Source: a virus. Taken from it: a stretch of DNA of 35,888 bases. The notes beneath the pieces were generated by a model. It was not told the origin of the DNA, searched no databases, and was given only the letters and a program-made list of their open reading frames with translations. The first letter of the stretch is position 1. The number at the start of each line of letters is the position of its first letter. Below are positions 21,631 through 25,438 of the stretch, piece after piece. The position numbers and the translations under genes were made by a program. The stretch is from IMG/VR virus record IMGVR_UViG_3300034198_015647, positions 1 to 35,888 of that record. The stretch is one strand, 5' to 3'.

Positions 21631-22151
21631 TGGAGTGGCTCGCGGCCGAGCTTGCGCTCGAGGCGCCGCGCGCCGCGGTGCTCGAGATCGGCTCGCGCAA
21701 TGTGAACGGCTCCGCGCGCGAGGCGTTCAACATGGCCGCGCGGTACTGGGGCGTCGATATCGCGGCCGGGCCGGGCGTGGATCAGGTGGCCGACGGCGCG
21801 GCCGTCGTTCCGCCGTTTGAGCCCGATACGGTCGTGTGTTGCGAGGTGCTCGAGCATACGCCGGCGTGGCGCGAGATCGTTCGGCACGCGTGCGAGGTAT
21901 TGGCGCCGGGCGGCTTGTTGCTCGTGACGGCGGCGTGTGATCCGCGCGCGCCGCATTCGGCGACCGATGGCGGCCGCGTGCGCGTCGGCGAGTATTACGG
22001 GAACGTTGAGCCGGCCGAGCTCGGCGCGGTGGTGCGCGAGGCCGGCTTGGCTGGGCGTGTGAGCGTGTTTCTCGAGCGGGGCGACGTGTACGTGGTGGGG
22101 CGTAAGCCGTGGTCGTCGGTGGCGCTCGAGCGCTCGGAGGTGGTGTCGTGA
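21615..22151 (+). CDS. Class I SAM-dependent methyltransferase
   Basis: A 178-residue enzyme. Motif I is VLEIGSRNVNGSAR (about 22-35), followed by YWGVDIAAGPGVD, VVCCEVLEHTPAWREI (acidic motif) and CEVLAPGGLLLVTAAC, all typical of Methyltransf_11-type enzymes. The C-end is a strand-rich cap. The acceptor cannot be predicted. GTG 21615 overlaps the kinase; ATG 21630 (TAATG) is an alternative start five residues later. Translational coupling to the kinase suggests a shared pathway, perhaps nucleotide or DNA modification. Confidence 0.82.
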   Translation: MHRPVMEWLAAELALEAPRAAVLEIGSRNVNGSAREAFNMAARYWGVDIAAGPGVDQVADGAAVVPPFEPDTVVCCEVLEHTPAWREIVRHACEVLAPGGLLLVTAACDPRAPHSATDGGRVRVGEYYGNVEPAELGAVVREAGLAGRVSVFLERGDVYVVGRKPWSSVALERSEVVS

Positions 22152-22429
22152 TTGGGGCGCGTGGCGGGTTGGCGATTGCCGGCCGCGCGTTCTTGCAAGT
22201 GGTCCTCGTGTCGGCGCAAACGGTGACGCTCGCGGCGTATCAGCAGCACGGCGAGCCGTGGCGGCTGGCAGTCGCTGGCGCCGTCGCGTTCTCGATTTCG
22301 TGGGTATGGTGGGCGAATGCGCGCGCGGCGACGCTCTCGAGCGTGCCGGCGGGGCGGTGGTGGTATGCCGGCGGCGCCGCGGCCGGTACGTTGGCCGGCG
22401 CGGCGTCTATGGGCTGGTTGATGCGTTAG
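22148..22429 (+). CDS. Small membrane protein
   Basis: A 93-residue protein with three hydrophobic spans: about 6-32 (LAIAGRAFLQVVLVSAQTV), 38-58 (WRLAVAGAVAFSISWVWWA) and 70-90 (YAGGAAAGTLAGAASMGWLM). No signal peptidase site. GTG 22148 overlaps the methyltransferase stop (GTGA). Holin-like topology is possible, but its distance from the endolysin makes other roles likely. Its 3' end overlaps a minus-strand gene by 23 bases. Confidence 0.7.
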   Translation: MIGARGGLAIAGRAFLQVVLVSAQTVTLAAYQQHGEPWRLAVAGAVAFSISWVWWANARAATLSSVPAGRWWYAGGAAAGTLAGAASMGWLMR

Positions 22430-22619
22430 CGTTTCTGCCCGTTCGGCGTGCAAAAGGCCTTAGCGGCCGCGCTTTGCGAAGGTGCGCGCGCAGTGCCCGT
22501 TGCCCGATAAGCGCTAAGCCCGACGGTGTGAGTACTAGGCGCCGCCTGTCGCGATTCCGGCGATACCTAAGTAAGCGGCGCGGGACATTGAAAAGTCGAG
22601 CGATAAAAGATTTTTTCAT
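22407..22619 (-). CDS. Basic protein, third gene of minus-strand cassette
   Basis: A 70-residue very basic protein starting MKKSFIARLFNV, with many Arg (about a quarter of residues) and a central LVLTPSGLALIGQRAL segment reminiscent of a winged-helix wing. ATG 22619 overlaps the upstream gene's TGA in ATGA, indicating coupled translation. Codon choice (TTA, CTT, AGG) differs from the plus-strand genes. It runs 23 bases into the end of the convergent membrane-protein gene. DNA or RNA binding is suggested only by charge. It could also be a chance frame. Confidence 0.4.
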   Translation of the reverse strand: MKKSFIARLFNVPRRLLRYRRNRDRRRLVLTPSGLALIGQRALRAHLRKARPLRPFARRTGRNANASTSP

Positions 22620-22783
22620 TTCGGTCGCAGGGGGCACAGTACAACAACAAGGTATTGTCGAGTATCTCCCAATGCGGTGGCGTCGGCGAGCTCGTGGCCG
22701 CCGAGCAGGTAGCCTGGGAGAATGGGTTGTTGGCACGTCGGGCAGAACGCCGGCCGCGGTGGTAGCAGTGGCGCGGCGCTCAC
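22616..22783 (-). CDS. Cys-containing small protein, second gene of minus-strand cassette
   Basis: A 55-residue protein starting MSAAPLLPPRPAFCPTC, with Cys14 and Cys17 forming a C-x2-C knuckle and possible further ligands His30 and Cys50. GTG 22783 overlaps the upstream TGA in GTGA, and the stop overlaps the next ATG in ATGA. The reading frame is too short for usual ORF cut-offs. It is probably a zinc-binding module, but only one complete knuckle is visible. The tight overlaps on both sides are the strongest evidence that it is real. Confidence 0.5.
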   Translation of the reverse strand: MSAAPLLPPRPAFCPTCQQPILPGYLLGGHELADATALGDTRQYLVVVLCPLRPK

Positions 22784-22944
22784 TGTGTGACGCCTTCCGA
22801 ATGTAGGCCGATCAGGCCGACGGCGAGAAATCCGGCGCCAGTGACCGGCGCGCCGGTGGCGAGCATGAGCGCGCCGGCGACGATGACGGCGACAATCATC
22901 GAACCAATCACAAGACGATAGAGCAATGGGGCGCGGTGCGTCAT
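22780..22944 (-). CDS. Small membrane protein, first gene of minus-strand cassette
   Basis: A 54-residue protein, MTHRAPLLYRLVIGSMIVAVIVAG then a second hydrophobic stretch, giving two probable spans (about 9-30 and 32-48) with a short polar C-end. It starts at ATG 22944 on the minus strand, only eight bases after a CATAAT -10-like box, so its mRNA may be leaderless. It overlaps the next minus-strand gene by GTGA. A perfect 17-bp palindrome lies in its promoter. In a prophage it would be a candidate superinfection-exclusion or lysogeny factor. No homology is claimed. Confidence 0.58.
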   Translation of the reverse strand: MTHRAPLLYRLVIGSMIVAVIVAGALMLATGAPVTGAGFLAVGLIGLHSEGVTQ

Positions 22945-22952
22945 GGGTAGAG

Positions 22953-22979
22953 ATTATGACAATTTGTCATAGAGTGCAA
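22953..22979 (-). promoter_or_regulatory. Minus-strand promoter with operator O1
   Basis: On the minus strand, TTGCAC (22979-22974) and CATAAT (22958-22953) form -35 and -10 candidates separated by 15 bases. The perfect palindrome TATGACAATTTGTCATA (22955-22971, 8-bp arms around one base) fills the promoter. Binding there would block polymerase. The -10 match is good, the spacing is short. Confidence 0.6.
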
Positions 22980-23022
22980 GTTGTAATTGTGACTGCGCGC
23001 TGACCGAGTTGTGAGTGCTTTT

Positions 23023-23039
23023 TATGACGAATGCGCATA
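23023..23039 (+). promoter_or_regulatory. Operator-like site O2 upstream of repressor
   Basis: TATGACGAATGCGCATA matches O1 at 12 of 17 positions, keeping the outer TATGAC and CATA. It is 78 bases before the repressor ATG, in the divergent promoter region, where autoregulation would be expected. Symmetry is weaker than in O1. The -35 and -10 for the repressor are not clear. Confidence 0.5.
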
Positions 23040-23116
23040 GAGTTAAAACATTGAGGCTCTAGCGTTTACCTCTCGTGGGAGGGGCGAAACGGCCGGGGCA
23101 AAGGTGGGTTAGAGGT

Positions 23117-23497
23117 ATGGTCGCGCGTCATTCTCGGTCGTTGTCGGATTTAGTGCGTCGGCGGCTGGCGGCGCATCTCGAGGGCATGCCGGCGCGGCCG
23201 ACGCAATCGGCCATTGCCGACGCGCTCGGCGTGACGCAAACGTGGGTCTCTCATTACTTCCGCGGTCGGCACGATGTAGACCTAGACACGTTGGCGAAGC
23301 TGGCCGACTTTCTCGGCGTGCGGCTCGAGTCGCTCGTGGCTGACTCGGAGAATGCCAAGGCGGTAAGCGCGCATCCGGCCGGCTTTGGCGAGGTGTGGAC
23401 GTTGCTGCAATCGGTGACGCCGGCCGAGCGGGACGTGGTACGCGACGTGTTGCGCGTGGTGGCTCGGCGTCCGGCGTCGAAGCGCGCGCGCGTCTGA
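23117..23497 (+). CDS. XRE-family repressor, putative CI
   Basis: A 126-residue DNA-binding protein. The HTH lies at about residues 28-58: QSAIADALGVTQTWVSHYFRG, followed by the fourth-helix region DVDLDTLAKLADFLGV. The C-end is helical and basic, without a LexA-type peptidase domain, so induction would not be by RecA-stimulated self-cleavage. ATG 23117 is chosen (AAAGG about ten bases upstream); GTG 23075 is in frame. It lies divergent to the minus-strand cassette and next to the integrase. Together with the operators this makes it the best candidate for lysogeny repressor, though a Cro-like role is not excluded. Confidence 0.75.
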   Translation: MVARHSRSLSDLVRRRLAAHLEGMPARPTQSAIADALGVTQTWVSHYFRGRHDVDLDTLAKLADFLGVRLESLVADSENAKAVSAHPAGFGEVWTLLQSVTPAERDVVRDVLRVVARRPASKRARV

Positions 23498-23504
23498 GGG
23501 CATC

Positions 23505-24659
23505 GTGGGCCGCGGCAAGCGGCGCCGGCTGGCGGCCGGCGTCTATTCGGACGGATCAGGGGTCGCGCTCGTGGTGTGGTCGCACGGCCGGCAAATTGAG
23601 CGGCGGTTGCCGGCCGGGCTCGAGCTCGCCGAGCTCAAGCGGCTCCGCGCGCAAATGCGGCTCGAGCTCGAGGCCGAGGCGCCGGCGGCCGTCACGCGTG
23701 GCACGTTCGAGGCCGACGTGGCGCGCTATCTGGATCTTTCGACGGCGCTCGCGGCCTGGAAGTCTCGGCGCTCGGAGTTGCGCGCCTGGTCGGATCTCTA
23801 CGGCCGGCGCGCGCGGTTCTCGCTGGTGCGCGCGGATGTGCTCGGCGCGATGGCGACGTGGCGCGCGGCCGGCGCGTCACCAAAGACCATCAACAATCGG
23901 GTAATCGCGCTCCGTGCGCTGTACGCCACGCTCGATGGTCCTGAGCGCGCATGCCCGGCGGATTATGTGCGGCCGCTCGAGGTGCCGCGCGCGCCGGCGC
24001 TCGTGGTGACGGCGGCGACCATTGCCGAGGTGTACGCGCGCCTGAGTACGGCCATTGCCGATCAGGCGAGCACGCGGCCGCGGTCGCATCATCGGATAGA
24101 CCGGCCGCGGTTGCGGCATCTTGTGACCACGCGCGCGCGGTTTCGTTTGCTCGCGGTGTCCGGTGTGCGGCCGTCGGAATTGATGCGCGCGCGGCCGGAA
24201 GATTTCGACCTAGACCGGCGGGTCTGGCTGACGCGTGACGGCAAGGGCGGCCGCCGGCCGGCCGGCGTGCCGATTACCGAGGCGGTCGAGGCGGCCGTGC
24301 GCGAGTTTATCGAGGCCGGGGCGTTCGGGAAATTCGATACGGGCGTGTTTGCTGATACGGTGCGGCGGTTCGGCTGGCCGGCGCATCTGCGGCCGTATGC
24401 GTTGCGACGGACGCTTGGGCAAGCGCTCACGGCTGAGGGCGTAGACCTGGCCGATACGGCGGCGTTGCTCGGCCATCGGCGCATCGACACGACGCGTCAA
24501 TTTTACGTGCCGGCGCGCGATGAGCAATTACGCGGCGCGCTCGAGCGGCTCGACGCACGCGTGGCGTTCGAGGGGGCCGGCGTGCCGGCGTTGCCGGCGC
24601 CGGACGGTCCGGCGCGGCGCGTGGTGCGCCGGCGCCGTGCGTGGAGTTCGGGAACGTGA
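23505..24659 (+). CDS. int: Tyrosine integrase
   Basis: A 384-residue site-specific recombinase. An N-terminal arm-binding region of about 65 residues is followed by the core-binding domain (about 70-150) and the catalytic domain (about 165-350). Catalytic residues: Arg222 in SGVRPSEL, Lys247 in DGKGG, Arg301 in RPYALRRT, His324 in LLGHRRIDTT and the nucleophile Tyr334. The first box II histidine is Tyr (Y298), a known variation. GTG 23505 follows the repressor by seven bases. The attP lies directly downstream. Confidence 0.92.
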   Translation: MGRGKRRRLAAGVYSDGSGVALVVWSHGRQIERRLPAGLELAELKRLRAQMRLELEAEAPAAVTRGTFEADVARYLDLSTALAAWKSRRSELRAWSDLYGRRARFSLVRADVLGAMATWRAAGASPKTINNRVIALRALYATLDGPERACPADYVRPLEVPRAPALVVTAATIAEVYARLSTAIADQASTRPRSHHRIDRPRLRHLVTTRARFRLLAVSGVRPSELMRARPEDFDLDRRVWLTRDGKGGRRPAGVPITEAVEAAVREFIEAGAFGKFDTGVFADTVRRFGWPAHLRPYALRRTLGQALTAEGVDLADTAALLGHRRIDTTRQFYVPARDEQLRGALERLDARVAFEGAGVPALPAPDGPARRVVRRRRAWSSGT

Positions 24660-24690
24660 TACAGTCCCTTTTGTCGTCGGAATGGCTCGA

Positions 24691-24714
24691 GTACATGGCA
24701 CGGCGACATGGCAC
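24691..24714 (+). repeat. Left arm-type repeat pair beside attP
   Basis: Two copies of ATGGCAC (24695-24701 and 24708-24714), 13 bases apart. The first is part of GTACATGGCACGG, repeated at 24930. The pair ends 10 bases before the tRNA-like core. They look like integrase arm-binding sites. Confidence 0.65.
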
Positions 24715-24724
24715 TAACCATCGT

Positions 24725-24765
24725 CGCGGGGTGGAGCAGTCCGGTAGCTCGTTGGGCTCATAACC
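24725..24765 (+). other. attP: attP core candidate: 5' half of initiator tRNA-Met
   Basis: Forty-one bases read as the first half of a bacterial initiator tRNA-Met: acceptor strand CGCGGGG (initial C1), the D arm GAGCAGTCCGGTAGCTC, then TTGGG and the loop CTCATAA with anticodon CAT at 24759-24761. The match stops after CC at 24765, within the 3' anticodon stem; no T arm or 3' acceptor follows. It starts 66 bases after int. This is the expected form of a tRNA-gene attachment core, but with the 5' part carried by the phage. Confidence 0.75.
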
Positions 24766-24784
24766 GGCGCGGCGAATGTGCAAA

Positions 24785-24806: not shown

Positions 24807-24929
24807 TCTCTCTCCTGAAAATGACGGAAACGTATAGAGCTATAGGGCCAAAATTGGGTCGATAGCTCGGCGCGCGCGTTGGGGCGTTTCGCGCCAAAAA
24901 ATGACAATTCGTGACGTGTTACGACGCGC

Positions 24930-24953
24930 GTACATGGCACGGACGCATGGCAC
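24930..24953 (+). repeat. Right arm-type repeat pair beside attP
   Basis: Two copies of ATGGCAC (24934-24940 and 24947-24953), again 13 bases apart, beginning with GTACATGGCACGG identical to 24691-24703. They flank the att core on the far side, about 165 bases away. Equal spacing in both pairs supports cooperative integrase binding. Confidence 0.65.
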
Positions 24954-25034
24954 GCGCGCGCGCTGATTAAAAAACTCTAAGGATTGGTAAATACACATGC
25001 TGAGCTCGGCGTTTCGGTAAAGCGGGGGGAATTT

Positions 25035-25175
25035 GTGTCTATGCCGTATCGGTCGGGTGGTCTCGTTGTACTCAAGGCGGCGGCGGCCGTCCTGGCGGTC
25101 TCTCAGGGTAGCAAAGTGGCTGCCGCGGCGCGTGTGTTGGCGGCGGCGCTGCGTGTCGTCAGGCGCCGTAAATAA
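25035..25175 (+). CDS. Short Ala/Arg-rich protein, uncertain
   Basis: A 46-codon frame (GTG 25035; ATG 25041 possible) coding for a helical Ala- and Val-rich peptide with a basic end (RVVRRRK). GCGGGGGGA lies at a suitable distance upstream. It could be a small membrane-active or DNA-associated peptide. It has no recognised motif. A CGCCGT/ACGGCG inverted repeat surrounds its stop. Confidence 0.35.
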   Translation: MSMPYRSGGLVVLKAAAAVLAVSQGSKVAAAARVLAAALRVVRRRK

Positions 25176-25193
25176 AAAAATCTCGCACGGCGT

Positions 25194-25222
25194 TTGACTT
25201 ATGCTGATTTGTCATATAGGGT
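25194..25222 (+). promoter_or_regulatory. Early promoter with operator O3 in the spacer
   Basis: TTGACT (25194-25199) and TAGGGT (25217-25222) are exactly 17 bases apart, and the spacer is the operator-like TATGCTGATTTGTCATA (14 of 17 bases equal to O1). Transcription would begin a few bases before the ATG at 25232, so the first early mRNA is nearly leaderless; there is no ribosome site. This should be the lytic early promoter controlled by the repressor. Confidence 0.72.
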
Positions 25223-25231
25223 TATTCCGCA

Positions 25232-25438
25232 ATGGCGACGAGCGGAACTTCTCACACAGTCGGACGGGTGCTCACGCGCGTGATGCGTGAGCGCCGGTGT
25301 AATCAAACCGAGCTCGCGCGCGCGTTTCGCGTGCCGCAATCGACGCTCTCACGTTGGATGGCCGGCGAGCGACGACCGCGCGAGCGGCGGGCGCGTCTCG
25401 AGCTTTTGCGGCTTGGCGTTGATCCGCGGTGGCTCTGA
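25232..25438 (+). CDS. Cro-like XRE HTH protein
   Basis: A 68-residue protein with a clear HTH (CNQTELARAFRVPQSTLSRWMAGERRP, about 23-49) and little else, as in Cro-type proteins. It is the first gene of the early operon, right behind the operator-containing promoter, opposite in role to the repressor at 23117. ATG 25232 has no ribosome site, in line with a leaderless start. Its stop overlaps the next ATG (TGATG). Confidence 0.8.
   Translation: MATSGTSHTVGRVLTRVMRERRCNQTELARAFRVPQSTLSRWMAGERRPRERRARLELLRLGVDPRWL

Follow-up and report, generated by a model that had tools for sequence, protein, structure and literature searches.

The minus-strand stretch between positions 22407 and 22944 is probably a PL-type unit, leftward and early, belonging to a lambda-like immunity region, a reading to which we assign a probability of about 0.6. 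The window analysed is an entire virus record of 35,888 bases. Its sequence supports the presence of a putatively repressor-regulated minus-strand unit with at least one real gene for a small membrane protein. This gene, m1, is very probably genuine despite its 54 codons, which is below the usual ORF cut-offs, and it can be separated from neighbouring frames that merely look coupled to it. The arrangement is of a known kind, whereas the proteins are without known relatives in our searches. Together, these features make it possible to read the genetic switch of a temperate phage for which the searched collections contain no close relative.

Genes of this phage lie almost all on the plus strand and encode, among others, terminase, portal and tape-measure proteins, an HTH repressor, a tyrosine integrase, a replication protein and a DnaB helicase. 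Three minus-strand frames of 54, 55 and 70 codons (m1, m2 and m3, Table 1) are present exactly as described in the original prediction, including the GTGA and ATGA junctions between them. The remainder of the window had been described as plus-strand. Consistent with this, a greedy, model-based gene call over the whole window, made without any hint, chose m1 as the sole minus-strand ORF and placed no plus-strand gene of comparable total score in the region 22430–22944.

Table 1. Predicted features of the leftward unit and of the adjoining immunity and integration region.
Feature	Coordinates	Strand	Basis and remarks
Hydrophobic 93-aa protein	22148-22429	+	After methyltransferase gene, convergent with cassette
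m3, 70 aa, Arg-rich	22407-22619	-	Probably not a gene
m2, 55 aa, candidate second gene	22616-22783	-	GTGA overlap with m1, SD-like site
m1, 54 aa, very probably first gene of leftward unit	22780-22944	-	Codon score, hydrophobicity, fold
PL, predicted	22951-22979	-	-35 TTGCAC (22974-22979), 17-nt spacer, -10 TAATCT (22951-22956)
O1, perfect palindrome TATGACAATTTGTCATA	22955-22971	.	In PL spacer and first two bases of -10
O2, operator-like TATGACGAATGCGCATA	23023-23039	.	Upstream of rep, 68 bp from O1
rep, Cro/CI-type HTH repressor	23117-23497	+	Pfam HTH_3 1.4e-9; PHROG transcriptional regulator/repressor
int, tyrosine integrase	23505-24659	+	PF00589 2.8e-14; phrog_1 3.9e-26
attP core, 5' half of tRNA-fMet gene	24725-24766	+	Matches tRNA-Met genes at ~92-97%
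O4, weak operator-like AATGACAATTCGTGACG	24900-24916	.	Beside attP, 5 mismatches to O1
PR, predicted	25194-25222	+	TTGACT - 17 nt - TAGGGT, O3 in spacer
O3, operator-like TATGCTGATTTGTCATA	25200-25216	.	Exactly fills the 17-nt spacer of PR
Cro-like HTH protein P0008, first rightward gene	25232-25438	+	HTH_3 1.1e-7; 10 nt downstream of PR

A probable membrane-protein gene opens the leftward unit

The codon statistics of m1 are those of a gene. When codon usage was modelled on the well-supported plus-strand genes, m1 scored 0.164 per codon, above the 121 other minus-strand ORFs of 45–120 aa and above every stop-free antisense window of equal length (312/312). When the model was made indifferent to third-position strand skew, m1 scored 0.314, which places it at the 61st percentile among windows from real coding sequence. 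The synonymous-only score is weak (-0.086, a value reached by 16% of antisense windows) and, thus, the support for m1 comes mainly from GC content by codon position and from amino-acid make-up.

A two-span membrane protein had been proposed for this frame, and two hydrophobic spans are indeed found. The 19-residue hydrophobicity maximum of m1 (2.69) is the highest among 124 minus-strand ORFs, with the next one reaching 2.04. AlphaFold, run without an alignment, produced two helices (residues 5–30 and 33–53) at a mean pLDDT of 81. The fold search with m1 yielded weak matches only (best E 1.3), as expected for a short hairpin. The protein would be a small two-helix hairpin that is presumably inserted into the membrane. 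Its size and topology invite the guess that it modifies the host envelope or shuts out other phages in early infection.

Coupled frames probably do not amount to three genes

The original prediction considered all three frames to be tiny genes. This very probably holds for m1, which carries a coding signal; m2 is a candidate, with statistics that do not exceed antisense noise, and m3 looks non-coding. The three frames do not stand or fall as one. A stronger form of the PL-unit reading, in which m1, m2 and m3 are all genes of one coupled, repressor-controlled operon for a membrane hairpin, a zinc-finger-like protein and a basic protein, draws on the exact GTGA and ATGA overlaps. It also draws on dinucleotide shuffling of the 538-bp stretch alone, in which none of 3000 shuffles contained such a chain, indicating that its openness goes beyond what composition would lead one to expect. 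However, any TGA stop that follows A or G yields an overlap, which makes coupling weak evidence. We counted chains of three ORFs, each of at least 50 aa, joined by NTGA overlaps. The minus strand holds six of them, and codon-shuffled genomes contain 2.3 on average and 6 at most. Since five of the six chains are antisense to ordinary plus-strand genes, the overlaps alone prove no genes.

The properties of m3 weigh against a three-gene operon, which we consider unlikely. This frame is basic, as had been noted, with 18 arginines among its 70 residues, but an arginine excess of this kind is typical of spurious frames. GC content by codon position is flat (.61/.59/.56), the codon score is -0.54, and m3 ranks below practically all real coding windows under every model. 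It also lacks an SD (duplex -1.4) and overlaps the 3' end of the plus-strand gene ending at 22429. The ATG of the 70-codon version sits within a longer GTG-initiated ORF (22407–22736, 109 aa). Therefore, m3 is probably not a gene.

The case of m2 is more balanced, and we treat it as a candidate gene. An SD-like GGAAGG located ~9 nt upstream (weak, duplex -5.7 kcal/mol) speaks for the longer operon, and GC content by codon position is roughly gene-like (.76/.53/.65). The codon scores of m2 fall within the antisense-noise distribution (skew-neutral, -0.065). This is not decisive, because the Cro-like gene of the same phage, near-certain by its HTH_3 match, scores lower still (-0.139). The single-sequence fold of m2 was uninformative (pLDDT 49). 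As for the claim of a C-x2-C protein, m2 does carry one CPTC; there is no second in-frame cysteine pair, the CAPC being in the +1 frame, which argues against a zinc ribbon and against the zinc-finger-like member of the operon. A frameshifted zinc-ribbon version of m2 that includes the CAPC was also considered and rejected, since neither of the two frames, nor a join of them, matches a family.

Opposite m2, a stop-free plus-strand frame of 52 codons (22607–22765) has a gene-like score of 0.27 in one 120-nt window at its start; a good start codon and a family match are both absent from this frame. No strong RNA structure was detected in 22407–22625 on either strand (z ~ +1), and the Rfam search gave no match.

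Related operator-like sites in two predicted divergent early promoters

An operator-containing, leaderless-type promoter had been predicted in front of m1, and all of its elements are in place, including the ATG at 22944 and the palindrome O1. The TAATCT hexamer ends 6 nt before this ATG and, hence, the PL transcript is expected to start at the ATG or adjoining it. PL is a consensus-type match read from the sequence, and the generic sigma-70 scan did not list it. An 8+8 palindrome such as O1 arises in 12 of 2000 local shuffles. O2 differs from O1 by four mismatches in the better orientation (five or fewer were reached in 18/2000 shuffles), and a 22-nt direct repeat with 77% identity accompanies it. 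O3 is closer, with three mismatches, and a match this good was obtained in 1 of 2000 shuffles of 25160–25231. When the whole window (35.9 kb) was scanned for TATGACAATTTGTCATA with up to five mismatches, four sites only were found, at 22955 (0 mismatches), 23023 (4), 25200 (3) and 24900 (5). All four belong to the rep-int-attP region and fall outside its coding sequences. Both Rep and the Cro-like protein belong to the HTH_3 family, and int and attP are present as well.

PL and PR have in common the 17-nt spacer and the presence of an operator in it, and in both the -10 element is followed by an ATG at no more than ~10 nt. Such similar construction suggests that the same protein is likely to control both. 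Judging from position and similarity, Rep would be the protein that binds the operators, or the Cro-like protein could bind them instead. The rep gene, divergent from m1, starts with ATG behind the SD AGAGGT, and its product had no match to a cleavage domain. Between O1 and O2, there are further repeats, AGTTGTAATTGTGACTGC and GAGTTGTGAGTGC (22979–23020), which may be bound by another regulator, for example the Cro-like protein.

The attP core, which has the same orientation as int, follows it immediately, and integration would thus put the tRNA gene of the host downstream of the rep-int transcript. The core is flanked by paired ACATGGCAC-type repeats, acatggcacggcgacatggcac and acatggcacggacgcatggcac, at 24690–24720 and 24930–24956, which look like integrase arm sites.

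A proposed switch and its relation to known phages

The order of elements under the PL-unit reading would be late genes (+), m3, m2 and m1 (-), PL/O1, O2, rep and int (+), attP, PR/O3 and the Cro-like HTH gene (+). Bound to O1 and O3 in the lysogen, the repressor would shut PL and PR together. Upon infection or induction, PL would fire early, and m1 would be translated as an inner-membrane hairpin from an mRNA with no leader or almost none. If m2 is a real gene, it would follow by translational coupling. An extended version, in which m1 and m2 (perhaps also m3) form an undescribed, coupled and repressor-switched early-left operon on leaderless mRNA, with the hairpin modifying the host envelope or excluding rivals in the first minutes of infection, appears doubtful to us as a whole. 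Should an early-left operon prove to be real, m1 would represent another orphan early membrane protein and a candidate for host takeover or exclusion.

The lambda repressor silences both PL and PR by way of operators that flank its gene (PMC11077077). Similarly, the HTH repressor gene of the present phage lies between two divergent early promoters, both predicted from sequence only. As in lambda, related operators overlap both promoters (O1 in PL and O3 in PR, three mismatches apart), a Cro-like HTH gene opens the rightward unit, and a small gene opens the leftward one. By contrast, rep and int are here both rightward and are found together between PL and PR, with attP just before PR. The leftward unit of lambda starts with N, an antiterminator. 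In our phage, there is no antiterminator-like first gene, and the unit opens with the membrane hairpin m1, suggesting a unit that resembles a PL operon in function without duplicating the one in lambda.

Cluster N mycobacteriophages provide a different precedent, because their central defence genes include the lysogen-expressed gp30/gp31 of Butters (PMC7542560). By analogy, m1–m3 could be a prophage-made exclusion or lysogeny cassette blocking other phages, a possibility raised in the original prediction. A small membrane protein whose gene separates the late genes from the immunity module does resemble the situation of Butters gp30/31 and Sbash gp30/31, and the central genome position and a multi-span membrane protein are shared with the Butters pair (PMC7542560). 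However, the Butters membrane protein has four spans versus two predicted in m1, and a sequence relation between them was not found. In contrast to lysogen-expressed genes, m1 has an operator-overlapped promoter. The best operator of the phage is positioned between the -35 and -10 elements of PL, in a layout nearly the same as that of PR, and the repressor should accordingly silence the cassette in the lysogen. With neither a PADLOC match nor relatives of the three frames, expression as a lysogen function is disfavoured and this reading is improbable. A role in exclusion or takeover during infection is possible under the PL-unit reading.

It is similarly improbable that the region is purely regulatory, with O1 serving the divergent repressor promoter and m1–m3 being ORFs that arose by chance in GC-rich DNA: chains of three ORFs are frequent on the antisense strand of genes in this phage, m2 and m3 are without coding signal and homologues were not found, but m1 surpasses the other minus-strand ORFs in both coding score and hydrophobicity, is predicted, without an alignment, to form a hairpin with fair confidence and has its ATG at the expected PL start, and a gap of almost 700 bp (22430–23116) would be left in a densely packed genome.

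Homologues and a lead to the host

Used as single queries against IMG/VR, m1, m2 and m3 had no relatives; that search needs exact 8-residue seeds, so distant relatives there may be missed. Nothing real was found for m1 and m2 in INPHARED phages, and m1–m3 gave nothing above noise in Pfam, PHROGs, NCBIfam and PADLOC, including no known Sie or defence family. Two apparent matches were rejected. The m1 match in 396 Acidobacteriota genomes is a single chance match of 27 residues inside a 1120-aa frame. The m2 match (in L255, E 3.5e-4) was absent when the search was rerun with pairwise output at a cut-off of 0.01, and it also spans the start of an unrelated gene, thioredoxin-like in appearance. For the strongly hydrophobic 93-aa protein encoded convergently with the cassette, a possible holin, a family match was not found.

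The terminase shares 64–67% identity with those of a handful of short IMG/VR contigs (5.6–16 kb), none of which contains a match to rep. A close relative of the integrase was not found among the phages and viral contigs searched. The closest one found (37%) is from IMGVR 3300006845_000403, an element likewise located at tRNA-fMet. Next to its int, that element has the 3' half of the tRNA, whereas the phage described here has the 5' half, and the part of the element that was read has no match to m1–m3 or rep. The nearest integrases are those of this tRNA-fMet element and of an acidobacterial genome; among the 396 Acidobacteriota genomes, the integrase has one relative, already known. The attP 41-mer is present in many bacterial genomes and is spread over many phyla; of the matches listed, those in Acidobacteriota form the largest group. 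We regard Acidobacteriota as a tentative lead to the host.

The operator 17-mer, with one mismatch allowed, has six matches in the same 396 genomes. Neither rep nor int of the phage had a match at these six loci, and we recognised no prophage around them. In an acidobacterial locus (L259:1501–1517), TATGACAATATGTCATA, a single base away from O1, is located just upstream of two ORFs, which by eye we take to resemble HigB and HigA.
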